Of a stretch of 33,248 nucleotides of DNA, positions 2,234-31,859 are shown one piece after another. Location: positions 1-33,248 of the forward strand of contig JAHDCG010000066.1 in NCBI GenBank assembly GCA_020629965.1, written 5' to 3'. How positions within the stretch are numbered: the first letter of the stretch is position 1; every line of letters starts with the position of its first letter. Origin of the DNA: Saprospiraceae bacterium. GTDB lineage: Bacteria; Bacteroidota; Bacteroidia; Chitinophagales; Saprospiraceae. The notes under the pieces are model-generated. The model was given only the letters and a program-made list of their open reading frames with translations. It ran no database searches and was not told where the DNA came from. The position numbers were made by a program, and so were the translations under genes.

Positions 2234-3355
2234 ATGCCGGCAAAACTGTTTCTCCTCTCTGTGCTTCTGTTGCTGCTGAGTTGTAATGATTTTTCTTCGT
2301 CAAAATCAACCAAAGCAGAAAACTCCGGAAAAGTAAAATCGGAAAATTCGCTGCAAGACACGGACGATTTGAACTTTGCGGAATTACTGCAAGGCGTTTC
2401 CGCAGAGAACATTTTGTACGACTCGACGGATTATTTTAACTGGGGTTCGTCAATCGTAAAAGGTGAAGACGGAAAATACCATCTCTTTTATGCACAGATG
2501 CCGCGCGAACACGGCTTTACTTCTTGGCTTAACGACGGTGTAATTTCTCGCGCCGTTTCCGATTATTCCGCCGGACCTTATGTGCATCAAGAGGTCGTTT
2601 TGCGCGGGCGCGGTTACGGTCATTGGGATGAAACGACGGCGCACAATCCTTGGATTCAAAAATACGACGGCAAGTATTATTTGTACTACATTTCCACCAA
2701 TCACGGCGGCAGAAAACTGACCGAAGACGAACTGTACCAATCGCGTTACAAGTGGATTGACAATGAATTTCGGGCGTTGGTCAGAGAGAATCAGCGTATC
2801 GGAGTAGCCGTTGCCGAAAGTCCCGCCGGTCCGTGGCAGCGTTTTGACCGCCCGCTCGTCGAACCCGGCGGTCCGATTGCAACCATTACCTGCAACCCCG
2901 CCGTCACGCGCCGACCCAACGGCGGCTATATCATGTTAGTCAGAGGAGATATGCCCGACACTACGGAACTCGTGCGTCACCAAGCGGTCGCCCTCTCCCC
3001 CGCCCCGACCGGTCCGTGGACTATACAACCCAAAGCCGCTGTCAGCTATATGAATGCCGAAGACCCCGCGTTGTGGTACGATGCAAAGCGCGAACGTTAC
3101 TACGGCATTTACCACGGTTTCGGATATATGGGTTTGATAACTTCGCTCGACGGGCTGAATTGGAAGAAGGCGCGGCACTACAAAATCATGGATTTGGCGT
3201 ACAAAAATGCAGCGGGCGAAACGGTCGAAGTTGCCCGCATGGAACGCCCGTTTTTGTACCTCGAAGACGGAAAACCGACGGTGCTGACGGTTTCGATAAA
3301 ATTAGAAAGCGGAGAATCTTATTCGATGTTTATTCCTCTGCGAGTACCGAATTAA
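2234..3355 (+). CDS. Glycoside hydrolase lipoprotein, GH43/GH117-like five-bladed propeller
   Basis: A 373-residue protein starting with a lipoprotein signal (lipobox LLSC, Cys17), so it is expected to be membrane anchored. The remainder has the repeated blade motifs of GH43/GH117-type propeller enzymes: WGSSIVKGEDGKYHLFYA near residue 75, HNPWIQKYDGKYYLYY near 140, RIGVAVAESPAGPW near 185, AEDPALWYD near 275 and ERPFLYLEDGKPTVL near 340. GH117 enzymes remove 3,6-anhydro-L-galactose from neoagaro-oligosaccharides, which is the sugar consumed by the right-hand gene cluster, so that specificity is attractive. However, the exact family cannot be fixed by eye, and other GH43-like specificities remain possible. 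The 3' end overlaps the convergent esterase gene by 26 bp. Confidence 0.75.
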   Translation: MPAKLFLLSVLLLLLSCNDFSSSKSTKAENSGKVKSENSLQDTDDLNFAELLQGVSAENILYDSTDYFNWGSSIVKGEDGKYHLFYAQMPREHGFTSWLNDGVISRAVSDYSAGPYVHQEVVLRGRGYGHWDETTAHNPWIQKYDGKYYLYYISTNHGGRKLTEDELYQSRYKWIDNEFRALVRENQRIGVAVAESPAGPWQRFDRPLVEPGGPIATITCNPAVTRRPNGGYIMLVRGDMPDTTELVRHQAVALSPAPTGPWTIQPKAAVSYMNAEDPALWYDAKRERYYGIYHGFGYMGLITSLDGLNWKKARHYKIMDLAYKNAAGETVEVARMERPFLYLEDGKPTVLTVSIKLESGESYSMFIPLRVPN

Positions 3356-4136
3356 AAAACCTAAACGTCCGCCGCACGTGCCGCTGCCAATATGACCACT
3401 CGTGACCGCCGGCAAATTCTGCGTAGGTGTGTCCGATTTTAGCATCGCTAAGCTGTCGGTGCAACAGGCGATTGCCTTCGATTAAGTCGTCTTCCGTACC
3501 GCAATCAAAGCGCAGGGCGGGCAGGCGGTCGCGGTTCTTTTTCATGGCGTCGATGACCTGCGGAAGGTCGCAATTTTCCGTATAGTCACTCAACGGCTCT
3601 TCGACAAAAAGCGACATTTCTGCTAATTTTGTAATCGAACTGTGTCCCGAAATTGCCTTAAATTTTTCGGAAAAACGCGCCCCCAGCATCAGCGCGCCGT
3701 AGCCGCCCATACTCAGACCACCGATGCAGACTGCCGAACTATCGCTCGCCTGTGGAATATTTTCGCGCACAGCGGTTATCACGTCTTCACAAATCCACGC
3801 CGCAAAATTTTTTTGATGGTGCGCAAAATAGGCCGAGCCGTCACCCCACAGCCCGTCGGAGGGCATGGCAATTACGGCAGGTTCGATGTCCTTGTTTTGC
3901 ATCATTTCAGCGGCGGTTTTAGCGGCACCGCCTTTCATCGCCCATATCCACGCGCTGCCGTACACGCCGTGCAGCAGGATGTAAATCGGCAGGTCAGTTG
4001 TGCCTTCCGCGACCTCGGGGACGTAAAGGCAGATGTCGCCGCGCCCGCGCAGGTTGGGGGTTTTGACGGTGAGGAAGCGGAGTCCGTCGGACTCGTAGGC
4101 GGGGTCGGATAGTTCGATGGTTCGGAAACTGCTCAT
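3330..4136 (-). CDS. Alpha/beta-hydrolase esterase, S-formylglutathione hydrolase/FrmB-like
   Basis: A 268-residue putative esterase (PF00756, esterase D type). The nucleophile elbow GGLSMGGYGA places Ser142. The acid is Asp216 in DCGTEDDL and the base His245 in GGHEWSYW. The oxyanion segment LLHGVYGS is near residue 54. The family includes S-formylglutathione hydrolase, which releases formate in thiol-dependent formaldehyde oxidation. It is the last gene of the minus-strand P450/ferredoxin/reductase/dehydrogenase group, so hydrolysis of an S-formyl thiol made by the upstream dehydrogenase is the most economical role. Deacylation of a carbohydrate is the alternative. No signal peptide is visible, so it is probably cytoplasmic. 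The stop overlaps the convergent glycoside hydrolase gene. Confidence 0.8.
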   Translation of the reverse strand: MSSFRTIELSDPAYESDGLRFLTVKTPNLRGRGDICLYVPEVAEGTTDLPIYILLHGVYGSAWIWAMKGGAAKTAAEMMQNKDIEPAVIAMPSDGLWGDGSAYFAHHQKNFAAWICEDVITAVRENIPQASDSSAVCIGGLSMGGYGALMLGARFSEKFKAISGHSSITKLAEMSLFVEEPLSDYTENCDLPQVIDAMKKNRDRLPALRFDCGTEDDLIEGNRLLHRQLSDAKIGHTYAEFAGGHEWSYWQRHVRRTFRFFNSVLAEE

Positions 4137-4164
4137 GATGTTGTGGGTTTAGAGGTTGGGGAGC

Positions 4165-4203
4165 AGAGTGACTAATCTTTTGAAAGGTTAGTCACTCTTT
4201 TTT
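4165..4203 (+). terminator. Strong hairpin with U-tract (plus-strand sense)
   Basis: Arms at 4165-4180 and 4183-4198 (AGAGTGACTAAT... pairing with ...GGTTAGTCACTCT) are almost perfect. On the plus strand the hairpin runs into seven T residues. It sits between the dehydrogenase and esterase genes, both on the minus strand, so in the sense direction it lacks a U-tract. It could stop rightward read-through from the glycoside hydrolase transcript, or stabilise or process the minus-strand operon mRNA. Confidence 0.55.
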
Positions 4204-4215
4204 CTCGGTTATTTT

Positions 4216-5334
4216 CTAATCAAAAACGATTACCCCTTTTGCATTTTTGCCCGACAGCATATCGTCAAATGCCGTTTGCAAATCCTCCAAGCGGTATTCG
4301 CGGGTTATCATTTCGTCTAATTTCAGGTCGCCTTTTTTGTACAAGCGCATCAATTTCGGAAAATCAATCTGCGGGCGACACTTGCCGTACAGCGGATTGA
4401 TGTAGATTTTGTCCCATTCAAAAAGTCGCATATCAATCGTAATTTCTTCTTCGATGCCGCTGACCTGTACCGCCGTGCCCGCGTTGCGAATCATCGCCAA
4501 AGGTGCCGCGCCCAAAGCGGGTACCGCCGTGCATTCAAAAGCGTAATCCGCTCCCCTGCCGCCGAGCATTTCCTTAATTTTTTCGGCGGTTTGGGTCAAT
4601 CCCGTATCGTTTTTGTCCGCCAAAAGGGTATCCGTTGCGCCGAATTGCGTTGCCAATTCCAACTTGTGCGGATTGATATCGACGGCGATAATGCGCCCCG
4701 CGCCCGAAATCGCACAGGCATTTATCACATTTAAACCGACACCGCCGCACCCCAAAACCACCGCCGAGCTGCCCGCCGCCAATTTTGCCGAATTGACCAC
4801 CGAACCGTAGCCGGTCATCACGCCGCAGCTCACGATTGCCGCCGCCGAGTAGTTGAGATTTGCTTTGTCGGTTTTCACCAAAGCCGAGGTCTTGACCAAA
4901 GCGTATTCGCTCAAAGTGCCCAAATTAAAAGAGCGTTCAATAGGTTTTCCGTCGTATTGCGAACCCGCCAAATGCGCGTGACCCGGCGTGTAGCCGTTGC
5001 CGCCCGCCGTGACGGGGGAGTTGTTTTCGCAAATGTGCTGATTGCCCTCTTCGCACTGAAAACAGGTCATGCAGGGCGTCGCCCAGTTCAAAATGACCGC
5101 ATCGCCGACCGCAAAATCAGTGACGGCACTGCCGACTTGCTCGATGACGCCCGCGCCCTCGTGTCCCATGATGATGGGTTTTCCCCAATGTAAGGAATCG
5201 TAATCGGTGTGACACAGTCCGGCGGCTTTCATCTTGACGATGACTTCGTCCGGTTGCGGGTCGGCGATTGCTGTGTTTGCTATGATGAATTTTCCGTCGC
5301 CGGTGGCGATGGCACTTCTTGCTGTTAAACTCAT
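4216..5334 (-). CDS. Zinc-dependent alcohol dehydrogenase, class III/formaldehyde-dehydrogenase-like
   Basis: A 372-residue medium-chain dehydrogenase. Catalytic zinc ligands are Cys41 (GLCHTDY), His58-Glu59 (MGHEGAG) and Cys170. The structural zinc lobe is complete with Cys88, Cys91, Cys94 and Cys102. The nucleotide-binding motif LGCGGVGLN is at about 195-202, followed by Asp219, which favours NAD+. The architecture matches the class III ADH/thiol-dependent formaldehyde dehydrogenase branch. It lies downstream of a P450 system and upstream of an FrmB-type esterase, which suggests it oxidises formaldehyde released by O-demethylation, as a thiol adduct or directly. The thiol cofactor is unknown. 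A general alcohol dehydrogenase role is possible. A REP-like element and a heptad repeat separate it from the reductase gene, so it may have its own promoter. Confidence 0.85.
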   Translation of the reverse strand: MSLTARSAIATGDGKFIIANTAIADPQPDEVIVKMKAAGLCHTDYDSLHWGKPIIMGHEGAGVIEQVGSAVTDFAVGDAVILNWATPCMTCFQCEEGNQHICENNSPVTAGGNGYTPGHAHLAGSQYDGKPIERSFNLGTLSEYALVKTSALVKTDKANLNYSAAAIVSCGVMTGYGSVVNSAKLAAGSSAVVLGCGGVGLNVINACAISGAGRIIAVDINPHKLELATQFGATDTLLADKNDTGLTQTAEKIKEMLGGRGADYAFECTAVPALGAAPLAMIRNAGTAVQVSGIEEEITIDMRLFEWDKIYINPLYGKCRPQIDFPKLMRLYKKGDLKLDEMITREYRLEDLQTAFDDMLSGKNAKGVIVFD

Positions 5335-5338
5335 GTTT

Positions 5339-5366
5339 GGTTGTCAGTTGTCGGTTGTCAGTTGAC
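5339..5366. repeat. Heptad tandem repeat upstream of the zinc dehydrogenase
   Basis: Four consecutive 7-mers read GGTTGTC, AGTTGTC, GGTTGTC and AGTTGAC on the plus strand. They lie 5 bp from the start codon of the minus-strand dehydrogenase. In the mRNA sense this is a CAACTGACAACC-type A/C-rich leader. Repeats with the same period but different unit sequence precede several other catabolic genes in the window. Confidence 0.75.
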
Positions 5367-5374
5367 CGTGGCGA

Positions 5375-5561
5375 GGTGTCTGACACTTGATTAAATCAAA
5401 AATCGTAAAGCTATGATTATCAGTAAATTATGCTAAAAAGTGTCTGACACCGGTTATCGGTTTTCAAGTAAAAGGGTAAAGGTGTCAGACACTCCCTTTT
5501 GCTTTACTTTTTATTTTATTCGCAATTTCACTGCTGTCGTTTGGGTCAAGTGTCAGACACC
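5375..5561. repeat. Nested-palindrome REP-like element, copy 3
   Basis: Boxes lie at 5375-5387 (GGTGTCTGACACT), 5439-5451 (AGTGTCTGACACC), 5481-5493 (GGTGTCAGACACT) and 5549-5561 (AGTGTCAGACACC). Boxes 1/4 and 2/3 are exact reverse complements, with spacing 64, 42 and 68 bp. The last box lies inside the 3' end of the ferredoxin reductase gene and encodes its final residues. Confidence 0.85.
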
Positions 5562-6781
5562 TTTAGGAGATTCGCGGGCTTAAAAGGTTCGTCGGCGTTT
5601 GCCAATTTCGCTTTGTCGATTCTTTGCCCGCCTTTGATAAATTTCGTTCCTAAAACGAATGCTTTGCCGTTATTGACCGCATCGACTGCCAAGAGTTTTT
5701 CGCCCGAAAAATACCAAACCGAAAAGCAGTTCACTTTGTCGGCTTCCGTTCTGACGATTGCTTCCGTATGTCCTTCCGATAAGCCGACGATTTGTAATTT
5801 GACATCGTACTGATCGGACCAAAACCACGGAATTGCATCGTAAACCCTCTCCTTTTCGCAAATTGAAGCGGCCGCAACTTTGGCTTGGTCAACGGCATTT
5901 TGCACCGACTCCAAGCGCAAAAAGCGGTCGTAATGCACATTGTGATGAAAGGTGCAATCGCCGACGGCGTAAATATCGGGGTCGTTTGTTTGCGCAGCCG
6001 CGTTGACTTTAATGCCGTTTTCTATATTCAGCCCGGCGGCTTGCGCCAATTCGACATTAACACGAATACCGACACCGACGACCACCAAATCTGCGAGGTA
6101 AATCGAGCCGTCCGCGCATTTTATTTGTCCGTTTTCAATGGCGGTGACGTTTTTTTCGGTTAATATATCGACGCCGTTTTCGGAGTGTAATTTTTGAAAA
6201 AAATCGGACATCACCTCGGTCGTCACCCGCGCTAACAGTCTGCTTTCTCTTTCTAAAACGGTGACTTTCGCCCCCGCTTTATGCAAGGAAGCCGCCGTTT
6301 CCAAACCGATGTAACCGCCGCCGATAATGACGACTTGCTTGTTTTCGGAATCTTTTAAAGCCTTACGAATGTCGGAAGCATCCGCCGCCGAGCGCATCGG
6401 AAAAACGTTGTTATGCGCGGACAAACCGGGTAGGGGCGGCAGCAAAGGACGCGCACCGACGGCAAGTACCAATTTGTCGTAAGTGATTTTCTCACCCGTT
6501 TTCAAAGTGACGTCTTTAGCTCTGCGATTGATAGACGCGACGGTCTCGCCGAGGCGCAGGTCGATGTCGGCAATCCCGTAGCTCTCCGCCGTTTGCAGCA
6601 GTTTGCGGTCGGCATCTTCCGGGTCGGTGAGGTAAGTTTTGGACAGCGGCGGGCGATGGTACGGCAACTCCGGGTCTGCGTCGAGCAGGACGATTTTACC
6701 CGTCCAACCTTCTTTACGCAGCGCAAAGGCGCAGGTGACTCCGCCGTGGCTCGCGCCGATGATAAGGACGGTTTTTTGCAT
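5546..6781 (-). CDS. FAD-dependent NAD(P)H:ferredoxin reductase (class I P450 partner)
   Basis: A 411-residue pyridine-nucleotide-disulfide-type oxidoreductase of the putidaredoxin/rubredoxin reductase group. The N-terminal FAD site is IIGASHGGVTCAFALR, an unusual GASHGG in place of the common GxGxxG. The NAD(P)H site is VVIIGGGYIGLETAASL at about residues 150-166. The second FAD motif VGVGI...DIYAVGDC lies near 235-275. It passes electrons from NAD(P)H to the ferredoxin encoded 16 bp upstream, which feeds the P450. The C-terminus ...LLKVSDT and the stop codon overlap the last box of REP-like copy 3. That could mean the original terminus was replaced by repeat sequence. The length is normal for the family. 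Confidence 0.92.
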   Translation of the reverse strand: MQKTVLIIGASHGGVTCAFALRKEGWTGKIVLLDADPELPYHRPPLSKTYLTDPEDADRKLLQTAESYGIADIDLRLGETVASINRRAKDVTLKTGEKITYDKLVLAVGARPLLPPLPGLSAHNNVFPMRSAADASDIRKALKDSENKQVVIIGGGYIGLETAASLHKAGAKVTVLERESRLLARVTTEVMSDFFQKLHSENGVDILTEKNVTAIENGQIKCADGSIYLADLVVVGVGIRVNVELAQAAGLNIENGIKVNAAAQTNDPDIYAVGDCTFHHNVHYDRFLRLESVQNAVDQAKVAAASICEKERVYDAIPWFWSDQYDVKLQIVGLSEGHTEAIVRTEADKVNCFSVWYFSGEKLLAVDAVNNGKAFVLGTKFIKGGQRIDKAKLANADEPFKPANLLKVSDT

Positions 6782-6797
6782 GGCTGTTTTTGTAATT

Positions 6798-7112
6798 TTA
6801 TTCTTCTCCCGCTACTTTTAATACAAGTCCGTCGGGGGCATCGGCTACGTTGATTTGACAGCAAAGGCGGCTGTACTCGTTGACGTTGTCGTCAAATTCG
6901 AGCATGTCGTTTTCGATTTCGCCGGGTTTGCCGACTTGCTTCATAAACTCGGGCGCGACGTGTACGTGGCAGGTAGCGCAGGAGCAAACGCCGCCGCAGT
7001 TACCTTCGATGCCTTTGATATTATTGGCAACGGCGAGTTCCATGACGGAGCCGGAGCTGCCTTCGAGAGTGACGGTTTCGTTGTCGGTGGTGATGAAGGT
7101 TATTTTTTTCAT
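6798..7112 (-). CDS. 2Fe-2S ferredoxin, adrenodoxin/putidaredoxin type
   Basis: A 104-residue vertebrate-type [2Fe-2S] ferredoxin. Cluster ligands are Cys39, Cys45 and Cys48 (C-x5-C-x2-C in GNCGGVCSCATCHVHV) and Cys84 or Cys85 in SRLCCQI. This is the classical single-electron carrier of three-component class I P450 systems. It lies 10 bp after the P450 gene and 16 bp before the reductase gene on the same strand, so co-transcription and a shared function are very likely. It has no signal peptide and is cytoplasmic. Confidence 0.93.
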   Translation of the reverse strand: MKKITFITTDNETVTLEGSSGSVMELAVANNIKGIEGNCGGVCSCATCHVHVAPEFMKQVGKPGEIENDMLEFDDNVNEYSRLCCQINVADAPDGLVLKVAGEE

Positions 7113-7122
7113 TGTTTTGTTT

Positions 7123-8277
7123 TTACTTGTTAAATCTCATTTCCAACTTATCAAACCCGACTTTGCGGTCGAATTTTCCCCACTGTTCGATGTTGTCTTT
7201 GTGGTCTAAAATTTCCATATAGCCGACCTTTTTTGCTAAAGTCGTCAGCAGCACTTTGAGTACCTGTCGGGCGTGTGTGGCGCCGAGGCAGTTGTGGTGA
7301 CTAAAGCCGAATGCGACGTGCGGATTGACTTTACGGTCGAGTACGACTTCGTTAGGATTTTCGAAAACGGCGGCATCCCGATTGGCGGATGCCCAACAAA
7401 GCGAAACGCGGGTGTCGGCTTTTGCGGCGTGTTCGCAGACGTGTGTGTCTTCGGTCACGATGCGCCCCATGTGCGTGAGCGGGGAAAAATAGCGGACGAG
7501 TTCTTCGATGGCGCGGGGGGTGATTTCGGGTTGTTCGCGCAGCAATTGCAAAGAGTCCGGATGTTCGGCAAAGTAGGCAACGGAGTTGGTCACGGCATTG
7601 ATGACCGTGTCCCGACCGCCGGCGAAAGTGAGGATGATGACGCCTTTTACTTCTTCTTTGGTCAGCTTTTTTCCTTGTACTTCGGAGGCGAGCAGCAAGG
7701 AATAAAGGTCGTCGCTCGGTTTGGCGGCAGCGCGTTCGATTTCGCGGTCGATGTAGTCGTACAGTGCCGTTGCCTTGGAGCCGTCGAGCGGGTTATCTTC
7801 GCTGCGGAAGACGTGTGTCCCCCACCCTATCCACGTTTCGGCTTCCGTTTCGGGCACGTTGAGTAACAGCGTCAGAGCGCGGGATTGCAGAGGCAGCGCA
7901 AAATCGCGGATGACTTCTGTCTTATCCTTTTGCAACACCTCCTCGACGGCTGCCTCGATTTGTCGGGTCAGTGCCGCTTCGTATTCCTCGTTTAAGGGGC
8001 GACGAAACCACTCTTCCACAAGTTTGCGGTATTCTGTGTGCAGCGGCGGGTCGGTCTCAAACGGAATTTGGCGCGTATCACGGATATGCACTTCGGAAGG
8101 CACGACGATGCGCCCGGGTGCCGCGCCCGATTGAAAGGTCTGCCAATTGTGTGCAGTGCGGCGCACATCTTTGAGGCGCAACAGCATGGTGACGGGGTCG
8201 TTTTGGTCGTCGATGGTGTGGTGACCGATTTGCTCTCTTGTCTTTTGAAAAGGATCCGGGAAGGTGCTTTTTTTCAT
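7123..8277 (-). CDS. Cytochrome P450, probable sugar O-demethylase (CYP236-like)
   Basis: A 384-residue soluble bacterial P450. The I-helix oxygen-binding motif is AGGRDT (219-224), the K-helix ExxR is Glu259-Arg262, and the heme thiolate is Cys330 in FGFSHHNCLG. The usual second glycine of FGxGxHxCxG is Ser326. It heads an operon with its own ferredoxin and reductase, then a zinc dehydrogenase and an FrmB-like esterase. In marine Flavobacteriia, P450s of the CYP236 family in this arrangement demethylate 6-O-methyl-D-galactose from porphyran, releasing formaldehyde. The length and context, including agar-sugar genes nearby, fit that role. The substrate is inferred; another methoxylated sugar or aromatic cannot be excluded. 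A divergent AraC gene probably controls it. Confidence 0.93.
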   Translation of the reverse strand: MKKSTFPDPFQKTREQIGHHTIDDQNDPVTMLLRLKDVRRTAHNWQTFQSGAAPGRIVVPSEVHIRDTRQIPFETDPPLHTEYRKLVEEWFRRPLNEEYEAALTRQIEAAVEEVLQKDKTEVIRDFALPLQSRALTLLLNVPETEAETWIGWGTHVFRSEDNPLDGSKATALYDYIDREIERAAAKPSDDLYSLLLASEVQGKKLTKEEVKGVIILTFAGGRDTVINAVTNSVAYFAEHPDSLQLLREQPEITPRAIEELVRYFSPLTHMGRIVTEDTHVCEHAAKADTRVSLCWASANRDAAVFENPNEVVLDRKVNPHVAFGFSHHNCLGATHARQVLKVLLTTLAKKVGYMEILDHKDNIEQWGKFDRKVGFDKLEMRFNK

Positions 8278-8591: not shown

Positions 8592-9428
8592 ATGGATGCA
8601 ATTTTAGAAAAGATAGAATTGAGTCAAGAGCGGTCGATTCACGCTTTTCGTCATACCAAAAAAGACTTTATCACGCCGTGGCATTTTCATCCGCAGCACG
8701 AGTTGACTTTTATTGAAGAGAGTAAAGGCACGAAATTTATCGGGGATTTTGTGGGCAGCTACGAACCGGGCGAGTTGGTTTTACTGCGCTCGAATTTGCC
8801 GCACTGTTGGAAGAATTTTGCGGAGCAAGAGGCAAAAGCGATTTCGACGGTGATACAATGGAATAAAGGAATTTTTGCGCGCGTGCCCGAATTACACGGT
8901 TTTTTCGAGTTGATAAAAACCGCATCCAAAGGCGTAATTTTCGAGAAAAAAGCGGTCGGCCCTCTCCTGCCGCTGTTGTTAAATTTGCCGAATAAAACGG
9001 GCGCGGATTTATACCTCGGTCTGCTGACGGTTTTGACCGGATTGGCGAATTGCCCTTACCGAACACTCTCCGAGGCAAGCTACACCGACGATCTGCCGAC
9101 GGAATACGGGACGCGCATGGCGAAAATTCACGATTTTATTGAAAAGCATTATGCACGCAAAGTCTATTTGAAAGAAGCGGCGGACTTAGTGAATATGTCG
9201 GAGCAGTCCTTTTCGCGCTTTTTCAGTAAGATGTTGCACCGTCCTTTTTTCTCGTTTTTAAACGAATATCGAATAAATATGTCTTGTCGGATGTTGATTG
9301 ACACCGACCGCTCGGTTTCGGAAATCGGGTATGATTGCGGTTATGATTCATTGCCCTTTTTCCACAAACAGTTTAACAAATTTAAGGGAATTTCGCCGGC
9401 GCGGTTTCGGAAGAAATATAAAATCTGA
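8592..9428 (+). CDS. AraC-family transcriptional regulator
   Basis: A 278-residue regulator. The N-terminal cupin-like sensor domain (about 15-110) contains WHFHPQHELTFIEE and GELVLLRSNLPHCW, typical of sugar-sensing AraC proteins. The C-terminal double helix-turn-helix (about 178-278) contains the family signature around residues 250-272 (VSEIGYDCGYDSLPFFHKQFNKFKG split over both helices). It is divergent from the P450 operon and upstream of kdgK, so it is the obvious candidate activator of one or both in response to a galactan-derived sugar. The inducer is unknown. A perfect terminator follows the gene. Confidence 0.92.
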   Translation: MDAILEKIELSQERSIHAFRHTKKDFITPWHFHPQHELTFIEESKGTKFIGDFVGSYEPGELVLLRSNLPHCWKNFAEQEAKAISTVIQWNKGIFARVPELHGFFELIKTASKGVIFEKKAVGPLLPLLLNLPNKTGADLYLGLLTVLTGLANCPYRTLSEASYTDDLPTEYGTRMAKIHDFIEKHYARKVYLKEAADLVNMSEQSFSRFFSKMLHRPFFSFLNEYRINMSCRMLIDTDRSVSEIGYDCGYDSLPFFHKQFNKFKGISPARFRKKYKI

Positions 9429-9664: not shown

Positions 9665-10702
9665 ATGAAAAAAGTAGTCACTTTCGGAGAAATTATGCTC
9701 CGTCTTACCCCTCCGGGTTGGCAAAGATTTTCGCAGGCCAATCAATTTGATATTATCTACGGCGGCGGCGAAAGTAACGTCGCGGTTTCTTTAGCTAATT
9801 ACGGCGTACCCGTCGAATTTGTCACCCGTTTGCCCGAAAACGACTTGGGAGAATGCGCGCTGATGGAAATGCGCAAACGCAACGTAGGTACAAGGCATAT
9901 CGCGCGCGGCGGCGAGAGACTGGGTATTTATTTTTTGGAAATCGGGGCGGTCAGTCGCGGTAGTAAGGTGGTGTATGACCGGGCGCATTCGGCAATGTCC
10001 ACCATCGAGGCGGGCATGATTGACTGGAAAACGGTGTTTAAAGATGCGTCTTGGTTTCACTGGACGGGTATTACGCCGGCTATTTCGCAGGGCGCGGCGG
10101 ATGCGTGTCTGGAAGCGATAAAAATTGCGAATGAGATGGGCGTCACCGTTTCGACGGATTTGAATTACCGGAAAAACTTATGGAATTACGGCAAAGAACC
10201 CGGTGAGGTCATGCCGGCTTTGGTAGAAGGCTGCGACATCATTTTGGGCAACGAAGAAGACGCGGAAAAGCACTTCGGGCTGCACCCGGAAGGCGTGGAC
10301 GTGACGGCGGGTCACGAGGTGGACGCCAAATCTTACCTCTCCGTTTTGCAGCAGTTGATGCAGATGTTTCCGCGCGCGAAAAAAGTCATCACTACCTTGC
10401 GCGGCTCGATTAGTGCCTCGCACAATACCTGGTCGGGTGTACTCTATGACGGCGAAACACTTTTTGAAGCGCCGACTTACGACATCACGGACATCGTGGA
10501 CCGGGTAGGCGGCGGCGACAGTTTTATGGGCGGTTTGATTTACGGTTTGCTGGAATACCCGAACGACGACCAACGAGCGTTGAACTTTGCGGTAGCGGCA
10601 TCTTGCCTGAAACATACGATTTACGGCGATGCGAATTTGGCAACGATTGATGAAGTAAAAAAATTGATGTCCGGTGATGCGAGCGGGCGGGTAGCGAGAT
10701 AA
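9665..10702 (+). CDS. kdgK: 2-keto-3-deoxygluconate kinase (PfkB family)
   Basis: A 345-residue ribokinase/PfkB-family sugar kinase. The N-terminal segment VVTFGEIMLRLTPPG and the GGGESNVAVSLANYG motif (about 32-47) are characteristic of KDG kinases. The C-terminal PfkB signature DIVDRVGGGDSFMGG contains the catalytic base Asp285. It phosphorylates 2-keto-3-deoxy-D-gluconate to KDPG with ATP. The next gene is KDPG aldolase, so the pair makes the lower Entner-Doudoroff branch. It would take up the product of the anhydrogalactose pathway encoded at 28-33 kb. 2-keto-3-deoxygalactonate is an alternative substrate. Confidence 0.9.
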   Translation: MKKVVTFGEIMLRLTPPGWQRFSQANQFDIIYGGGESNVAVSLANYGVPVEFVTRLPENDLGECALMEMRKRNVGTRHIARGGERLGIYFLEIGAVSRGSKVVYDRAHSAMSTIEAGMIDWKTVFKDASWFHWTGITPAISQGAADACLEAIKIANEMGVTVSTDLNYRKNLWNYGKEPGEVMPALVEGCDIILGNEEDAEKHFGLHPEGVDVTAGHEVDAKSYLSVLQQLMQMFPRAKKVITTLRGSISASHNTWSGVLYDGETLFEAPTYDITDIVDRVGGGDSFMGGLIYGLLEYPNDDQRALNFAVAASCLKHTIYGDANLATIDEVKKLMSGDASGRVAR

Positions 10703-10805: not shown

Positions 10806-11474
10806 ATGGCAAGATTTAACAGAATAGAAGTTGCTCTGAAAATGAAAGAACAGGGCATGGTTCCGCTTTTTTACGAAGGTAATATAGAAACGGCGAAAAG
10901 ATTGGTGCAGGCGTTGTACGACGGCGGTGCGCGGTTATTGGAGTTCACCAATCGGGGCGATTTTGCGCACGAGGTTTTTGCGGATTTGAGTAAATATGCG
11001 GCAAGAGAAATGCCCGATTTGATTTTGGGTGTCGGTTCGGTCACGGACGCGGGCGCGGCGAGTCTTTACATGATGCTTGGTGCGAATTTTATCGTCACAC
11101 CCGTATTGCGCGAGGACATTGCGGCGGTTTGCAATCGGAGAAAAGTGCTGTGGTCACCGGGCTGTGGCAGCTTGACGGAGATTACGCGAGCGGAAGAATT
11201 GGGTTGTGAAGTCGTTAAATTATTTCCGGGCAGCACCTACGGATCGGGCTTTGTGAAAGGCGTCATTGCGCCGCAGCCCTGGACGAATATCATGCCGACG
11301 GGCGGCGTTTCTCCGGACCCGGAAAATCTGCGGGCTTGGTTTGCGAGCGGTGTGTATTGCGTCGGTATGGGTTCTAAACTGATGATTAAGACAGCGGACG
11401 GAGCTTACGATTTTGCGAAAATCGAAAAGTTGACGCGGGATACTTTGGCTTTGATTGGGGAGGTCAGAGCTTGA
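10806..11474 (+). CDS. eda: KDPG/KHG aldolase (Eda-type)
   Basis: A 222-residue class I aldolase. The Schiff-base lysine is Lys138 in VVKLFPGS. Glu46 in LLEFTNRG corresponds to the proton-transfer glutamate. The phosphate-binding glycine motifs are PTGGVSP and GVYCVGMGSKL. It cleaves 2-keto-3-deoxy-6-phosphogluconate to pyruvate and glyceraldehyde-3-phosphate. It follows kdgK after 103 bp, which contain a paired octad repeat. The two genes complete the degradation of deoxy-keto acids made by the dehydratase/cycloisomerase cluster on the other side of the replication region. Confidence 0.92.
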   Translation: MARFNRIEVALKMKEQGMVPLFYEGNIETAKRLVQALYDGGARLLEFTNRGDFAHEVFADLSKYAAREMPDLILGVGSVTDAGAASLYMMLGANFIVTPVLREDIAAVCNRRKVLWSPGCGSLTEITRAEELGCEVVKLFPGSTYGSGFVKGVIAPQPWTNIMPTGGVSPDPENLRAWFASGVYCVGMGSKLMIKTADGAYDFAKIEKLTRDTLALIGEVRA

Positions 11475-12330: not shown

Positions 12331-12984
12331 TTAAAGTGATTTGATGATACGGATAATGTCATTAACAAAGTCAATCATTTCCGACTTGGCTTCTCGGGAA
12401 GAATACTCGACCACTCCCCTGCCCTCGAAAGTCGCGTCTTCATATCCGGCTAAGTTCCGGATGACCGTAGAGATAACCCGTTCTCCAAAGTTTTCGCGCA
12501 TCATTTCGATAACTCCTTTTTGTTTCGGTTTTCCTCGGTCGTGCAGGTTGACGGCAAAATAAAGCGGCACTGCTTTATCTTTAGTCACTTCCAAGGCTCT
12601 CACCTTCCGGATAAACTGATTGACCGTATTTATTTCTTGTTGACCTTTCGGAGTAATCGGCGCGATGACGAGATTACTCATGATGATGATACCGTCGGAA
12701 ATCGGGTCGGTGGACGGCGGACTGTCAATAATAACTACATCGTACCTTTCGTTTAAATCTTTTATTTTGAAAGGAATATCGTCTTTGTTCGTTTCCTGAA
12801 ATACTTTGACCTGCGGCAGTTCAGGGTCTTCTTTTCTGATTTTTCCCCAAGCGGCCGAGTTTCCGGTTTCATCCGCGTCGAGAATACAGACCGTTTTACC
12901 GGCGTGCGCGAGGCTGACTGCGATGTTTTCGCTGAGAGTCGTTTTTCCGACACCGCCTTTGTAAGATGTAAGTGCAATTATCAT
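12331..12984 (-). CDS. parA: ParA-family partition ATPase
   Basis: A 217-residue protein from the ATG at 12984 (MIIALTSYKGG); an 11-residue longer start is possible but less typical. It has the deviant Walker A box KGGVGKTT near residues 9-16, the A' motif VCILDADETGN, and Walker B VVIIDSPPS near 83. It is short, without an N-terminal HTH, as in type Ib ParA proteins (ParF/Soj-like). It drives segregation of the replicon on the nucleoid together with the downstream RHH protein. Upstream lies the repeat-rich region 13029-13810, which probably includes both the promoter and the centromere. Confidence 0.92.
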   Translation of the reverse strand: MIIALTSYKGGVGKTTLSENIAVSLAHAGKTVCILDADETGNSAAWGKIRKEDPELPQVKVFQETNKDDIPFKIKDLNERYDVVIIDSPPSTDPISDGIIIMSNLVIAPITPKGQQEINTVNQFIRKVRALEVTKDKAVPLYFAVNLHDRGKPKQKGVIEMMRENFGERVISTVIRNLAGYEDATFEGRGVVEYSSREAKSEMIDFVNDIIRIIKSL

Positions 12985-13028
12985 AAGTATGATGTTTAAA
13001 TTATTTTTAAGCCGCAATAATACGAAAT

Positions 13029-13810
13029 CCTTTTTTCAGGAAAAACGTTTTTCATACTTTCAGTTTTACCTTTTTTCAGGTAAAAAGGTTTTAGGTTACA
13101 AATTTTGCCCATACCCTTTTTTCAGCTTTTCAGGTTTCCAGGAAAAAAGGTTTTCAGGCAATTTAATAAAACATTTTGCTGTTTACCTTTTATCAGATTT
13201 TCAGGAAAAAAGGTTTGCAGTTTGTCAAAAGGAAACGGACTTCGGGATAAGTCATTTTAATAAGTGTCTTTTGCTCTCGGTTTATCATTCAAAAGCAACA
13301 TCAGGTAAACCTCTTTTCAGGAAAAAAGGTTTTCAGGAAAAGGCTCTGTTTTCAATTTTTATTAATCAAAAAGGTTTTCAGGTTTACCTTTTTTCAGGTT
13401 TTTAGTTTAAAAGGCAATATCAAAATCAATTTTTCAGTATTACAGTTTTTCAGTTTTTCAGGTAAAAAGGTTTACCTGAAAAACTGACTGTTTGATTAGA
13501 AGAAAAAATCTATCGGATGATTATTGAGTCGGAGAACGAACCGGTTTTTATCAAAAAAAAAGCGATGGTCGAAAAAAAAGCATGATAAAAAAATTAGGCG
13601 ATTTAAAGCACTAAAAAAATCCGAGTTATGCAGTTATGTGAAATCAGGTAAAAAATGCCTTCAAACAGCTTGAAGCATGAGATAAACGGAAACGGGAATT
13701 ATATTTCTTACTCATAGAACCAACGAGAACAAAAATCATTCTTCAATTTAAACAAAATCGACCTGAATACCTGAAAAAAGGTTTTCAGTATTTCAGGTAT
13801 TCAGGCAAAA
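13029..13810. repeat. CCTTTTTTCAGG repeat array, probable centromere (parS-like)
   Basis: The 780 bp upstream of parA contain more than ten copies, in both orientations, of the word TTTTCAGG. It is often extended to CCTTTTTTCAGG or its complement CCTGAAAAAAGG, as at 13029-13040, 13069-13080, 13115-13125, around 13139-13156, 13200-13213, 13315-13337, 13374-13398 and 13770-13805. A perfect 8-bp palindrome arm pair (CAGGTAAA/TTTACCTG) lies at 13459-13478. An open frame through the first 400 bp only repeats FQEKRF-like words from these units and is not credited as a gene. Centromere function is inferred from position next to parA/RHH. Confidence 0.75.
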
Positions 13811-14126
13811 CTTATCATTATTCGGAAATTTTAAAAGTACAGGCATCAGCGAAGTATTGTATTCAATTTCGGAAAGACAATGAGAGAAAAAGTCCGTTAG
13901 CTTAATTCGAGTTACATCACTGCTGCGGTTGAAAAGAGGGGGGCGGCCGGAACTCGGGGGAGATTTACATATTTCATTGAGAAGAAGTGAGACTGTTGTG
14001 CCTAAAAAAGAAAAAGATTTTTTTAAAATCATCGTAAATTCTTTTAAGACTTTTCTTAAGATTCTTTTTTTTTAAGATTTTAACAACGCCGGAAGTCAAG
14101 CAGGCAAAGGCTTTCGACTCCATAAT
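13811..14126. other. AT-rich segment before the iterons, possible DNA-unwinding element
   Basis: No gene is supported; a minus-strand open frame at 13793-14032 has no recognisable feature. The part at 14036-14090 is extremely AT-rich, with repeated TTTTAAGA/TTAAGATT words directly next to the iteron block. That is the usual place for a melting region in iteron origins. I saw no perfect DnaA box. Confidence 0.4.
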
Positions 14127-14370
14127 GCCTACAATATCAGGGTTAAAAGCCTACAATTTCAGGGTCGGATGCCTACAATATCAGGGTCGCAAATGCCTAC
14201 AATATCAGGGTTAAAAGCCTACAATTTCAGGGTCGGATGCTAAAATATGCTTTTTCGACTCTAAAAGCCTACAATTTCAGGGTTGAATGCCTACAATTTC
14301 AGGGTCAAAGGACTGATTAATCCTTTAAAAGCCTACAATATCAGGGTTAAAAGCCTACAATGTCAGGGTT
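14127..14370. repeat. Iteron array of the plasmid origin (nine copies)
   Basis: Nine direct repeats follow the consensus GCCTACAATWTCAGGGTY. They start at 14127, 14149, 14171, 14195, 14217, 14267, 14289, 14331 and 14353. Most steps are 22 bp (two helical turns), with one of 24 and two longer gaps (50 and 42). This is the classical layout of Rep-bound iterons. The Rep_3-type initiator gene begins about 450 bp downstream in the same orientation, so this is the probable replication origin and copy-number control site. Confidence 0.92.
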
Positions 14371-14526
14371 ACAGCCCGATTGTGCCGTGAGTCCGGTGAA
14401 ATCGTCTTGATTTTACTGCTGTTTCGGGAATTGCGGATAAATTTTCGCCGTAATTTTTTTTGCTTGAATCTTTATATACAAAATTTTTAATTTTATGACC
14501 TCAGAAATGCAGTTTTATGCTTTAAA

Positions 14527-14699
14527 GCCTACAATTTCAGGGTCAAAAACCGCGACATCGGACTCAATGCCTATATATACAGGGCAGAGAAAAAAACGGC
14601 ACGGGAAGAAGAGTCAAGAGAGATTTAAAATCCAAAATTATCACGTAGAATCCTTACGACAGTTGACTTTCTTAGTTTAATACCTACAATTTCAGGGTC
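14527..14699. repeat. Second, sparse iteron group
   Basis: Further copies occur at 14527-14544 (perfect), 14569-14586 (degenerate, GCCTATATATACAGGGCA) and 14682-14699 (first base changed). They lie between the main array and the Rep gene. They may act in incompatibility or copy control. A short open frame through this stretch is a by-product of the repeats. Confidence 0.8.
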
Positions 14700-14760
14700 G
14701 ATATTATCAAATTTTTTCGATAAATTTCAAACGATAACCGACCGCTGAATAAAAAATTAA

Positions 14761-14787
14761 ACCTACATTTGAACTTTGATTGTAGGT
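14761..14787. promoter_or_regulatory. Inverted half-iteron, probable Rep operator
   Basis: ACCTACA (14761-14767) and its complement TGTAGGT (14781-14787) repeat the first half of the iteron in inverted orientation, 29 bp before the Rep start codon. In Rep_3 plasmids, inverted partial iterons at this position bind Rep dimers and repress rep. No other function is evident. Confidence 0.7.
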
Positions 14788-14815
14788 TACGGCAAAACAA
14801 ACCAAAGTCAGCATT

Positions 14816-16063
14816 ATGGAAGATTTATTTAAAAGAAGCGAAATAGCCCGTTTTACCAATGATTTTGCCCGCAATGCCGAAATCGGTTTTACGGAAGCAA
14901 GACAGTTGTTACTGTTCCTGGCTTTAGTCAGCCAAACCAATCCGCAAGACGAAGGGGAGGAAATGACCGGGATATTGAATGTGCGTGAGATAGAAAGGTT
15001 AATCAGAAAAAAGGGGGCAAAGAAATCCGGTAATTTTTATAGTGAGATAAAGATTTTTATCGAGAAAATGTTGATGAATAATTATGTGCGGTTTTCTCCG
15101 AGTGTGGATGACAAAAATGCGAAGAAATATCTGAAGGATTACGGTGTTATTTTCGACCGTTTGCAAGTTATGCAGGGAGGCGAAGGAACCTTTTATCAGT
15201 ATCGTTTTCACGAAGACATGCGTCCGCATATCAAAATGTTGAAGGAAAACTTCGTTAGTTTGGCTATACCGAAGGGTATGAGAAGCGGTCACGGCATTCG
15301 ATTTTTAATGTTGGCAAAATCGCATCACAGCCGGGTCAGAGCGTTTAAAAAAGTGTCTGTATTGGAGATTGCCATCACCGATTTGGTAAGAATTTTAGGC
15401 ATAGAAAACAAATATCCTCGTTTTAACAACTTGAAAGTGAGGGTAATCGAACCGATGATTAAAGAGGTCAATAACTCCGGTTTGTTGCGGGTACAAAAAC
15501 ACGAATACATCAGAACGGGCAGGTCGATTAGTCACATCAAGTTTAATCTGACGGACGGAATTTTGACCGAAGAACGTAACCGACTCGGTGCGCCCGATGT
15601 CAAGCAAACCCCGGCAAAACGAGAAAAAGCCGGCTTCGTACCGACTTCCGAAGATGAACAGCAACTGAAAAGAGGGCAATATTTGGCGTATAAATTTTTG
15701 ACCGAAAAGGGATGTATTCCGGGTATAGTACATCGGCAAATTGTGGTAAAAATGCCTTCGAGTGAGTGTCTCGGTTGGGAGGATGTATATATCGAGAATG
15801 CGTGGGGTCGTTTTGAAAAAGGAACTAAACACAGCGAGAAGAAAGGTAAAGCCGGTGCTTTTGTCAAGTGGTGGATGAACGGCGAATTCAAAGATCGACA
15901 TTTTTCGGAGCTGATAGAGGAATTGGTAGCTTATAAAAAAAAGGTAAGAAACGATGACCCGAAACGTTGGGAAAACAGAATGAAGGTGCAGGATATGACC
16001 AATTCGGAGTTTATGGCTTGGTATGAGGAGGAGAAGAGAAATTTCAAAAAGGAGAGGGAGTAG
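14816..16063 (+). CDS. Replication initiator protein, Rep_3 superfamily
   Basis: A 415-residue initiator of the RepB/Rep_3 class (PF01051). The first winged-helix region covers about residues 1-140 (starts DLFKRSEIARFTNDFARNAEIGF). The second covers about 165-255 and contains the family hallmark YPRFNNLKVRVIEPMIKEVN near residue 200. The charged C-terminal extension (about 265-415, Lys/Glu-rich) is longer than in small plasmids. It binds the upstream iterons, melts the origin and represses its own promoter. Its presence is the main reason to regard this DNA as an independent replicon. The start at 14816 fits the operator position. Confidence 0.92.
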   Translation: MEDLFKRSEIARFTNDFARNAEIGFTEARQLLLFLALVSQTNPQDEGEEMTGILNVREIERLIRKKGAKKSGNFYSEIKIFIEKMLMNNYVRFSPSVDDKNAKKYLKDYGVIFDRLQVMQGGEGTFYQYRFHEDMRPHIKMLKENFVSLAIPKGMRSGHGIRFLMLAKSHHSRVRAFKKVSVLEIAITDLVRILGIENKYPRFNNLKVRVIEPMIKEVNNSGLLRVQKHEYIRTGRSISHIKFNLTDGILTEERNRLGAPDVKQTPAKREKAGFVPTSEDEQQLKRGQYLAYKFLTEKGCIPGIVHRQIVVKMPSSECLGWEDVYIENAWGRFEKGTKHSEKKGKAGAFVKWWMNGEFKDRHFSELIEELVAYKKKVRNDDPKRWENRMKVQDMTNSEFMAWYEEEKRNFKKERE

Positions 16064-18457: not shown

Positions 18458-19975
18458 TCACCCCTCCGTCACCTCCACTATCTCCCGAAAACTCTCCAGC
18501 CCCGCTTCCAAATTCTCGATAATCTCCGCCGCCGGTACATCCGGGTCGGGCAGGTTTTCCAAATCCACCAGACTCTTATCTTTCAGCCAAAAGATGTCGA
18601 GGTTGGTCTTATCGCGGGCAATGATTTCTTCATAAGAAAACTTGCGCCAGCGACCGTCGGGGTTTTCCTCCGACCGGGTCTCCGTGCGTTTGTGTCGATT
18701 TTCGGGATTGTAGAGCGTGATAAAATCGCGTAAATCTTCCAAGCGCAGCGGACTCTTTTTGAGCGTGTGGTGGATATTGGTCCGGTAGTCATACACCCAT
18801 ACATCCTGCGTCCAAGCCGTTTTGGAGGCTTTACGGTTGTCGAAAAACAACACGTTTGCCTTGACCCCCTGCGCGTAGAAGATGCCCGTGGGCAGGCGCA
18901 GAATGGTGTGCAGCTCCGTGGTCTTCATCAACTGTTTGCGGACGGACTCGCCCGCGCCGCCCTCGAAGAGGACATTATCGGGCAGGACTACCGCCGCCTC
19001 ACCGTCGATTTTGAGCAGAGTGCGGATGTGCTGCAAAAAGTTCAGTTGCTTGTTGAAGGTCGTCGCCCAAAAGTCCTGCCGGCTGTAGGTCAGTTCCTGT
19101 TTTTGCTGTTCGCCCGCCTCGTTGGTAAAGGTCATGCTGCTCTTTTTGCCGAAGGGCGGATTTGCCAAGACGTAGTCGAAGCGCATCCCGTCGTCGGCAA
19201 TCAGCGCGTCGTTGGGCGAGATGTTGGTTTTGCCGTCAATCTCACCGATGTTATGCAGGAACATATTCATCAGACACATGCGGCGCGTATTCGCCATGAT
19301 TTCGTTGCCGTAGAAAGTCTCGTTTTTGAGAAACTTCTTTTCCTCCGGGTCCAAGCGGTGATTGGCGGCAATGGAGTCGTAAGCCGCCAAAAAGAACCCG
19401 CCGGTGCCGCAACTCGGGTCGTTGACGGTCTTCATCGGCTCGGGGCGCACGCACTCGACCATGGCGCGTATCAGCGCGCGGGGCGTAAAGTACTGACCCG
19501 CGCCGCTCTTGGTATCTTCGGCGTTTTTCTCCAGCAGCCCCTCGTAGATTTTGCCTTTGAGGTCGGTACCCATGACGCTCCATTTCTCTTGGTCTATCAT
19601 GCGAATGATGCGCAGCAACTTCGCCGGGTCTTGAATTTTGTTTTGACTCTTGGTAAATATCTGCCCCAAAATCCCTTTTTCCGTCGCAAGGGTGCGCAGC
19701 ATCTGCCCGTAGAAAGCCTCCAACTCCGCGCCGCGTTTGCCGCTGAGCGTTTCCCAGTCGCAGACGTCGCCGTCGGCTATCTCGTTACCTTCCACGTCTT
19801 TGAGACGCGGAAAACTCAAGTTCTTATTGTGCGGCGGCTTGCTGAACTCGTCCGCCATTTTCAAAAACAACAAATAGGTTATCTGCTCTAAATAGTCGCC
19901 GTAGCCCACGCCGTCGTCGCGCAGGACGGAGGCGAATGACCAAACTTTGGAAATGATGGAGGATTCGTTTTGCAT
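18458..19975 (-). CDS. hsdM: Type I restriction-modification DNA methyltransferase subunit HsdM
   Basis: A 505-residue N6-adenine methyltransferase. The HsdM N-terminal helical domain is followed by AGQYFTPR (159-166), the SAM-binding motif DPSCGTGGF (186-194) and the catalytic NPPF (272-275, in ANPPFGKKSS). All motifs are intact and the length is normal. It forms the M2S methylase with HsdS, encoded 24 bp upstream on the same strand. It is the last gene of the minus-strand operon. With HsdR frameshifted, M and S may still modify the host genome. Confidence 0.96.
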   Translation of the reverse strand: MQNESSIISKVWSFASVLRDDGVGYGDYLEQITYLLFLKMADEFSKPPHNKNLSFPRLKDVEGNEIADGDVCDWETLSGKRGAELEAFYGQMLRTLATEKGILGQIFTKSQNKIQDPAKLLRIIRMIDQEKWSVMGTDLKGKIYEGLLEKNAEDTKSGAGQYFTPRALIRAMVECVRPEPMKTVNDPSCGTGGFFLAAYDSIAANHRLDPEEKKFLKNETFYGNEIMANTRRMCLMNMFLHNIGEIDGKTNISPNDALIADDGMRFDYVLANPPFGKKSSMTFTNEAGEQQKQELTYSRQDFWATTFNKQLNFLQHIRTLLKIDGEAAVVLPDNVLFEGGAGESVRKQLMKTTELHTILRLPTGIFYAQGVKANVLFFDNRKASKTAWTQDVWVYDYRTNIHHTLKKSPLRLEDLRDFITLYNPENRHKRTETRSEENPDGRWRKFSYEEIIARDKTNLDIFWLKDKSLVDLENLPDPDVPAAEIIENLEAGLESFREIVEVTEG

Positions 19976-19999
19976 AATATTTCTAATTTATTCTTTTCG

Positions 20000-21532: not shown

Positions 21533-21598
21533 CCAATCTTCTCTTATAAGTAATATTTAAACTAAAAAAGTGATAATGCAGGCGCAAAGAAAGACAAG

Positions 21599-22015
21599 TC
21601 AATCCATACTTTCCGGTTTGGCACTGCGGCTTGTGATTTTATAGGCAAAGGGGCGCGGCTGTCTTGCGGCGGCTTTAGTGATTTCTTCCCAATGTTTGGT
21701 GAGTAACTTGACGAGGTCCCAATATTTGAAGCCGCTTTTGGAGGGAGAGCGCAGGTAAATCATACCCAAGTCAAACTGCTCGCAGAGTTCCCGTTGGTGT
21801 TTGATGCGTTTGATGTTGTAGTCCTGTGTAATGACACATGCGCCTTGACTGCCCGCCTCGGGTATCCAATCTTCGTCTTTAGCTCCGCGCCCGAATACCC
21901 CGGAAACGGATTTGACTTCGAGGCGGGTACGGTTACTGAGGTTCAGCCCTTGCTGCAAGATGTCAAAGGCTTCGGCTAATTGACGGGGCAGATTTTCGTC
22001 AAGATAAATTATCAT
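21599..22015 (-). CDS. DUF5615 PIN-like protein, putative toxin
   Basis: A 138-residue protein with the DUF5615/PIN-like pattern. The acidic start IIYLDENLP holds Asp6-Glu7. KDEDWIPEA follows near residue 46, CVITQDYN near 63, and a region around LGMIYLR then completes the fold. Such proteins are predicted Mg-dependent ribonucleases, partnered with DUF433 proteins in type II toxin-antitoxin pairs. Its ATG overlaps the TGA of the DUF433 gene (ATGA), a sign of translational coupling. The C-terminal tail after residue 110 is basic. Toxicity is inferred from the family. Confidence 0.82.
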   Translation of the reverse strand: MIIYLDENLPRQLAEAFDILQQGLNLSNRTRLEVKSVSGVFGRGAKDEDWIPEAGSQGACVITQDYNIKRIKHQRELCEQFDLGMIYLRSPSKSGFKYWDLVKLLTKHWEEITKAAARQPRPFAYKITSRSAKPESMD

Positions 22016-22680: not shown

Positions 22681-22918
22681 GTTTGGCGTGAAGACGGTTG
22701 AGTTTTCTGAAAAGTGAGTTGTGTTATTGCAAAAGTCGGTGAATTTTTGATAAAACGGGGGAAAAGGAGTAGTTATTTTACTGATGTCGTTTGGCAGAAA
22801 AACTGCCTGTCTTTTTTTAACTAATGTATTTGAACGCCGTGTCAGATATATATGCCTGTCAAATTTATTTTTGACTATACCTGTTGAAGAAACAAGACGC
22901 TCGCATGCAGGGAAACAA

Positions 22919-24570: not shown

Positions 24571-24601
24571 AATAGTTTTTCAGTGTGTTGCCTTTCTTTC
24601 G

Positions 24602-29224: not shown

Positions 29225-29235
29225 CGAGAAGGCGA

Positions 29236-29270
29236 AAACCACCAACTATCAACCACCAACTATCAACTAA
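29236..29270. repeat. CAACTAT heptad repeat before the SDR gene
   Basis: Five 7-mers (AAACCAC, CAACTAT, CAACCAC, CAACTAT, CAACTAA) end 3 bp before the SDR start codon. The same CAACTAT word precedes the AraC gene at 8574. There is no Shine-Dalgarno-like sequence, so the repeat itself is the leader. Confidence 0.75.
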
Positions 29271-29273
29271 TAC

Positions 29274-30044: not shown

Positions 30045-30057
30045 GGAGGCTTGGTGA

Positions 30058-31769: not shown

Positions 31770-31776
31770 GGCTTCC

Positions 31777-31853: not shown

Positions 31854-31859
31854 TATTTT

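Follow-up and report, generated by a model that had tools for sequence, protein, structure and literature searches.

The 33,248-bp Saprospiraceae contig JAHDCG010000066.1, analyzed whole and referred to here as the window, carries a run of five genes for a cytochrome P450, a ferredoxin, a ferredoxin reductase, a zinc alcohol dehydrogenase (ADH), and an alpha/beta-hydrolase esterase (Table 1). By homology, this locus is a 6-O-methyl-D-galactose (G6Me) O-demethylation cluster of an agar/porphyran-using member of the Bacteroidota. The cluster is of an already known kind, to which the window adds one more carrier. Among its relatives, the ADH and the esterase form a two-gene module of their own that travels apart from the P450. 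This module bears on the main question posed by such clusters, namely, why mutants deleted for the ADH grow less well on G6Me though the enzyme is inactive on formaldehyde in vitro.

In a first scan, six exact peptides of the window ADH were matched to 84,980 genomes and 64 loci were obtained; such a scan favors near relatives. Subtracting three distant loci and adding the window and seven loci from a phylum search gave a set of 69 ADH loci, many of them on short contigs of metagenome-assembled genomes. Outside the 69 stand L064 to L066 (23 to 27% identity), the duplicates L124, L125, and L137, the short re-fetched loci L067 to L089 and L114 to L123, and three plasmid loci (L138, L140, and L141). 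The esterase lies within 4 kb of the ADH in 63 of the 69 loci, and a P450 is near in 38. The five-gene arrangement is not due to chance, as 34 of the 69 loci, the window included, hold both P450 and esterase near the ADH. Where the esterase is missing from the locus (six cases), the contig of L039 ends within the ADH, and four of the other five hold an esterase elsewhere in the genome at 44 to 56% identity; for one ADH carrier, G006, no esterase was found in the genome. Among the 27 genomes with a P450-less ADH locus, seven encode a P450 elsewhere with at least 64% identity, another encodes one at 45%, and a further genome has a weak 27% match; in 18 no P450 was found anywhere. Our phylum sample of 395 Bacteroidota genomes holds the ADH in 10, the P450 in 10, and both in 7 (Fisher p = 5e-11; the Fisher tests reported here ignore kinship). 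The three P450 genomes without the ADH are also without the esterase and were counted in favor of ADH-esterase linkage.

Individual loci add detail to this picture. Arenibacter sp. F26102 (L019) keeps the ADH and esterase, with a 53-residue reductase match just upstream (positions 9791 to 10001) and no P450 match in the genome; it looks like the P450 operon was lost and the pair retained. In genome G125 (L136, 9289 to 11732), P450 and ferredoxin genes precede a PF00756 esterase gene of a different kind, and the genome lacks an ADH of the window type. Twelve loci (L009, L012, and ten with a P450) share a DUF1501 gene family (cluster c6) near the ADH.

A PhyH-type Fe(II)/2-oxoglutarate oxygenase is encoded near the pair in 10 P450-less loci and directly upstream of the ADH in 8. 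Seven of these loci hold one type of PhyH (type one: L009, L012, L040, L041, L042, L044, and L049), and three hold another (type two: L052, L060, and L132). On the Emticicia plasmid pEMTOL04, genes for an AraC-family regulator, PhyH, ADH, and esterase stand in a row, with PhyH and ADH overlapping by 4 bp. Both P450 and PhyH are present in L010 (Zobellia barbeyronii), and a desaturase-Rieske fusion lies upstream of the pair in one locus of the 69 (L029). PhyH-like open reading frames (ORFs) number 11 of 960 in 61 loci and are found in 10 of 27 P450-less loci versus 1 of 34 P450 loci (Fisher p = 0.0014). A PhyH gene is near 8 of 26 ADHs versus 23 of 341 other genes, a control that is not independent because it was drawn from the same loci. 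Likewise, type-one PhyH occurs in 12 of 19 ADH carriers without a P450 versus 8 of 30 with one (Fisher p = 0.017).

The six type-one PhyH genes upstream of an ADH form one supported clade (96/93), mapping ADH adjacency onto the PhyH tree takes three or more changes, and the PhyH loci fall in at least three places on the ADH tree, a quick tree with long branches. In L009 and L012, the AraC beside the PhyH-ADH-esterase run is 63% identical to that of the window, and both genomes hold a P450 operon elsewhere, without an ADH. The PhyH metal ligands H151, D153, and H240 are invariant in 20 relatives, as is R251. PhyH enzymes (FJS and PHYHD1) O-demethylate the ribose of 2'-O-methyl nucleosides and release formaldehyde (PMC12709175), which provides a model for a PhyH partner freeing formaldehyde from a methyl ether. 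However, the substrates in that case are nucleosides, and the ADH-adjacent PhyH bears only a distant resemblance to PHYHD1 (60 bits). Among the publications listed by our searches of open-access literature, none dealt with a PhyH and ADH/esterase pairing. The ADH-partner PhyH was not found in the genome from which the window comes.

The five ORFs of the window cluster are all intact and lie on one strand in the order that an earlier note on this DNA had given, as the ORFs and Pfam families confirm. The gaps measure 10 bp between P450 and ferredoxin, 16 bp between ferredoxin and reductase, 211 bp between reductase and ADH, and 79 bp between ADH and esterase. The divergent AraC gene lies 314 bp from the P450. 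Across the loci, an AraC gene stands no more than 4.5 kb from the ADH in 28 of 34 with a P450; for those that are P450-less, the count is 8 of 27 within 3.5 kb. Against the PDB, the P450 matched 6g5o/6g5q at 633.7 bits over residues 1 to 383, with the next match at 158 bits, and we take 6g5o to be the Zobellia P450 enzyme. The window P450 is 70 to 72% identical to copies in Zobellia uliginosa, Microscilla plasmid pSD15, and Catenovulum, and its own ferredoxin and reductase sit in its operon. In the CYP236-type family, G6Me is demethylated, with galactose and formaldehyde as products (Reisky 2018, as cited in PMC10033563). The window P450 and its redox partners would likewise oxidize the O-methyl group of G6Me to give galactose and formaldehyde, as shown in print for orthologs. 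The reading of these three genes as a G6Me demethylation set is supported by the 6g5o match, the rest of the window agrees with it, and from homology we regard this step as near certain. According to PMC10033563, G6Me makes up as much as 28% within porphyran chains, and its utilization is accordingly of importance to the cycling of marine carbon.

The window ADH is, on homology, a member of the ZoADH/FoADH family. Its best PDB matches are 8h2b (708 bits, E = 2e-212) and 8h2a (640 bits, E = 8e-192), codes assigned in PMC10033563 to ZoADH and FoADH, respectively; the next match scores 177 bits, and class III ADHs score about 176. It falls below the cut-offs for class III ADH (FrmA; TIGR02818, 209.3 of 543.95 bits), S-(hydroxymethyl)mycothiol dehydrogenase (TIGR03451, 228.3 of 512.9 bits), and the NDMA-dependent formaldehyde family (268 of 440 bits). 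In an alignment to human class III ADH, a five-residue acidic loop is deleted and the human arginine lies opposite Pro107; both are presumably glutathione contacts. The zinc ligands are intact (C41, H58, E59, and C170, together with C88, C91, C94, and C102) and invariant in 69 relatives, with gaps ignored. The description of this protein as having an intact class III-like architecture therefore stands for the zinc ligands but not for the class III model, the acidic loop, or the arginine. Across all 69 sequences, 88 of 372 positions are invariant whatever the partner, gaps again ignored, including T43, W84, R134, F136, S292 to E295, F305 to K309, Y311, and N313 to G317. F136 is named as a possible contact in PMC10033563, and by homology these invariant residues would line the pocket.

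The published work on this family (PMC10033563) already describes the same neighborhood of P450, redox partners, esterase, and ADH in several marine genera. Deletion of the Zobellia ADH led to poorer growth on G6Me but not on galactose. The Formosa and Zobellia ADHs were inactive on formaldehyde alone, showed no dismutation, and remained inactive with glutathione, mycothiol, bacillithiol, cysteine, coenzyme A, ergothioneine, 2-mercaptoimidazole, and 4-mercaptophenol. Both enzymes prefer to reduce aromatic aldehydes, and furfural and pyridine-3-carbaldehyde are good substrates. The authors consider the pocket too tight to admit mycothiol, bacillithiol, or sugars, and they leave the function open, mentioning an unidentified thiol as a possibility. 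The earlier note had proposed that formaldehyde, in the form of a thiol adduct, is converted to formate by the ADH and esterase, with the cofactor open. Formaldehyde oxidation with known thiols is rejected on these ortholog assays and on the family cut-offs, and neither the assays nor the published five-gene set had been mentioned in that note.

The esterase was called FrmB-type, which is correct for the PF00756 family but does not extend to S-formylglutathione hydrolase, for which it scores far below the cut-off (TIGR02821, 30.6 of 281.7 bits). All 51 sequences compared share S142 and H245, and no evident signal peptide was seen by eye. A structure model built with 44 of the 51 sequences at hand (pLDDT of 93) gave top matches that were tied, namely, S. 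aureus FphF (Z = 29.0), a feruloyl esterase (29.0), and S-formylglutathione hydrolases (25.8 to 28.6). The esterase is discussed in PMC10033563, the available text of which describes no assay of it. The window pair resembles FrmA/FrmB in placing a zinc ADH and a PF00756 hydrolase side by side, and it differs in missing the family cut-offs and the presumed glutathione contacts and in having orthologs inactive on formaldehyde.

Searches for formaldehyde disposal routes covered 49 ADH carrier genomes, a set that overlaps the 395-genome sample. The window genome (99.4% complete) has no hexulose-6-phosphate synthase (HPS; TIGR03128) above the cut-off (best score, 33.7 of 200 bits) and no class III ADH or FdhA above theirs. 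HPS exceeds the cut-off in 4 of the 49 carriers (Z. uliginosa, Dyadobacter jejuensis, Z. barbeyronii, and Seonamhaeicola) and in 2 of the 395 phylum genomes, class III ADH does so in none of the 49, and FdhA does so in 2. With so few HPS carriers, the ribulose monophosphate (RuMP) pathway was rejected as a general formaldehyde sink. BshC is above the cut-off in 42 of the 49 carriers, including the window genome, and missing or below it in 7. Polaribacter MED152 contains N-methyl-bacillithiol at 1,151 pmol/mg versus about 200 for bacillithiol (PMC6282198), and this thiol is absent from those listed as tried in PMC10033563. With BshC not over the cut-off in 7 of 49 carriers, N-methyl-bacillithiol is a candidate only and not a general answer. 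A further rejected idea was that a gammaproteobacterium with glutathione would do without the pair. Catenovulum adriaticum has it on the same 647-kb plasmid as its P450 operon but 208 kb away, where AraC, ADH, and esterase lie beside an anhydrogalactose gene set (L141, 1835 to 10922).

The steady company of ADH and esterase, the swapping of oxygenases beside them, and the fixed ADH sequence point to chemistry shared by oxidative O-demethylations, involving either the methyl-derived carbon or by-products. The 88 residues fixed across partners would be explained by a substrate independent of the oxygenase's sugar, and a two-gene unit beside unrelated oxygenases leaves room for a one-carbon role with another acceptor. 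Among the readings, we place first, with confidence that falls somewhat short of even, a role for the pair on a one-carbon hydroxymethyl adduct. The ADH and esterase would be an accessory module, one that also occurs next to further oxygenases with the potential for O-demethylation, and their shared substrate would be the one-carbon product common to all O-demethylations, X-CH2OH. The ADH would oxidize X-CH2OH to the formyl ester X-CHO, which the esterase would hydrolyze to formate. X would be none of the thiols tried in print, and candidates are another thiol, such as N-methyl-bacillithiol, or the sugar hydroxyl, as in the hemiacetal first formed by the oxygenase. More doubtful is the fuller proposal that the pair is a portable, so far unrecognized one-carbon oxidation module serving the P450, two PhyH types, and the desaturase-Rieske fusion, with an adduct that is not of glutathione, mycothiol, or bacillithiol and is possibly a sugar hemiacetal. 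If true, this proposal predicts PhyH-type methoxy-sugar demethylases as an unknown class in the Bacteroidota.

Several observations count against the hydroxymethyl-adduct role. Two orthologs were negative on formaldehyde under all conditions tried, and their best activity was the reduction of aromatic aldehydes (PMC10033563). Among ADH loci, 20 of 69 have no P450, PhyH, or desaturase-Rieske gene nearby, and 3 of the 10 P450 genomes (G112, G226, and G125) lack the ADH, the esterase, and HPS above the cut-off, so the pair is dispensable for some. Sugar demethylation by the ADH-adjacent PhyH is putative, and 12 of the 13 phylum-sample genomes with PhyH of the ADH-partner type have no ADH, for which reason the idea of an obligatory PhyH partner was also rejected. 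Genomes of this phylum commonly lack class III ADH and HPS, so the gap is not specific to carriers; with HPS rare anyway, the scarcity of such disposal routes among carriers shows need rather than specificity. Finally, because 7 of 49 carriers have a BshC gap and the pair is also found in a gammaproteobacterium, a single bacillithiol-derived cofactor cannot serve all carriers.

The partner swaps confine the question to chemistry that different oxygenases share, whether one-carbon or repair, and they point to proteins that can be tested. In the repair version, the oxygenase would misfire at C6 to give galactose 6-aldehyde or oxidize the methyl group twice to give 6-O-formyl-galactose; the ADH would reduce the aldehyde with NADH, and the esterase would remove the formyl group. 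This scheme needs both genes, suits P450 and PhyH partners alike, and agrees with the published ADHs being mainly aldehyde reductases whose deletion hurts only on G6Me (PMC10033563). Nevertheless, we consider it unlikely, since three P450 genomes manage without the pair, the pocket is argued to be too narrow for sugars, and no sugar-aldehyde activity is reported in the available text of PMC10033563, where the word "dialdose" does not occur. We give similarly little weight to a wider galactan role only loosely tied to demethylation, in which the pair would remove furan or other aldehydes arising from anhydro-sugars. The activity on furfural and pyridine-3-carbaldehyde (PMC10033563) would fit such a role, as would the 20 loci without a recognized oxygenase, the keto-deoxy-sugar genes found no farther than 10 kb from the pair in L045, L046, L048, and L049, and the genes beside the pair in Catenovulum. 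However, the deletion phenotype was seen on G6Me alone, with no anhydro-sugar supplied (PMC10033563), and P450 and ADH co-occur strongly in the phylum sample. Least probable of all, and in our view very unlikely, is the earlier proposal of thiol-dependent formaldehyde oxidation by an FrmA/FrmB-like pair with an ordinary thiol such as bacillithiol or glutathione. The adjacent genes for a zinc ADH and a PF00756 hydrolase, the presence of bshC in most carriers, and the tie of the esterase fold with S-formylthiol hydrolases would agree with it, whereas the assays of two orthologs with glutathione, bacillithiol, and mycothiol refute it for those enzymes in vitro (PMC10033563), and the missed family cut-offs and missing class III residues argue in the same direction.

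The window locus shares its five gene families with the G6Me locus of Zobellia galactanivorans and Formosa agariphila (PMC10033563), and Z. uliginosa has the same gene order, with P450 and ADH 70% and 80% identical to those of the window, respectively. The window differs from the first two in probably belonging to a different Bacteroidota family and in its neighbors, which comprise a replication module of plasmid type and genes of an anhydrogalactose route. A RuMP route is reported for Z. galactanivorans, whereas the window genome has no HPS above the cut-off. Plasmid pSD15 of Microscilla sp. PRE1 encodes a P450, ADH, and esterase 72%, 76%, and 54% identical to those of the window, along with AraC and agarase genes, but there the ADH and esterase genes lie across the AraC gene from the P450 operon and point away from it.

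Table 1. Predicted genes of the G6Me locus and sugar-related genes of the window
Feature	Position	Strand	Evidence and remarks
GH43/GH117-like protein, converging on esterase gene	2234-3355	+	Below Pfam cut-off, 26.1 of 32.2 bits
Alpha/beta-hydrolase esterase (esterase D / CE1-like fold)	3330-4136	-	Pfam PF00756 Esterase 1.7e-16; constant ADH partner
Zinc ADH, ZoADH/FoADH family	4216-5334	-	Pfam ADH_N 1e-24
FAD-dependent ferredoxin reductase	5546-6781	-	Pfam Pyr_redox_2 2.3e-72, Reductase_C 4.6e-25; present in relatives
2Fe-2S ferredoxin, P450 electron donor	6798-7112	-	Pfam Fer2 1.4e-6; position kept in relatives
P450, 384 aa	7123-8277	-	Pfam p450 9.7e-19; CYP236-type G6Me O-demethylase by homology
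AraC-family regulator, divergent, probably controls cluster	8592-9428	+	Pfam; recurs near ADH in relatives
2-Keto-3-deoxy-sugar kinase (PfkB)	9665-10702	+	Pfam
KDPG-type aldolase	10806-11474	+	PRK07114, 351 bits over 275 cut-off
Threonine-dehydrogenase-like ADH, KduD-like SDR, aldehyde dehydrogenase, 3,6-anhydro-L-galactonate cycloisomerase	28208-32954	+	Homology

The rest of the window fits the use of red-algal galactan (agar/porphyran sugars), as judged from the predicted proteins. The last four genes in Table 1 encode a probable L-anhydrogalactose route: the cycloisomerase matches 5xd7 (E = 2e-183), the KduD-like short-chain dehydrogenase/reductase (SDR) scores just below its cut-off (313.8 of 338.85 bits), and the best solved relative of the aldehyde dehydrogenase is 6j75 (E = 2e-218), which we take to be an anhydrogalactose dehydrogenase. 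The best PDB matches of the protein converging on the esterase gene are anhydro-alpha-L-galactosidases (E = 2e-7, a short match). Between the two halves of the sugar genes lies a plasmid-type replication module (12331 to 16063), with a ParA-type ATPase and about 11 direct repeats in 22-bp steps (14113 to 14699) just upstream of a Rep_3 initiator gene. The window, which is the whole contig, showed no terminal repeat and may be a plasmid or an integrated plasmid. A type I restriction-modification system (HsdM, HsdS, and HsdR) occupies 18458 to 27561, with PIN_10/DUF433 and HipA-like kinase/DUF3037 pairs between HsdS and HsdR.

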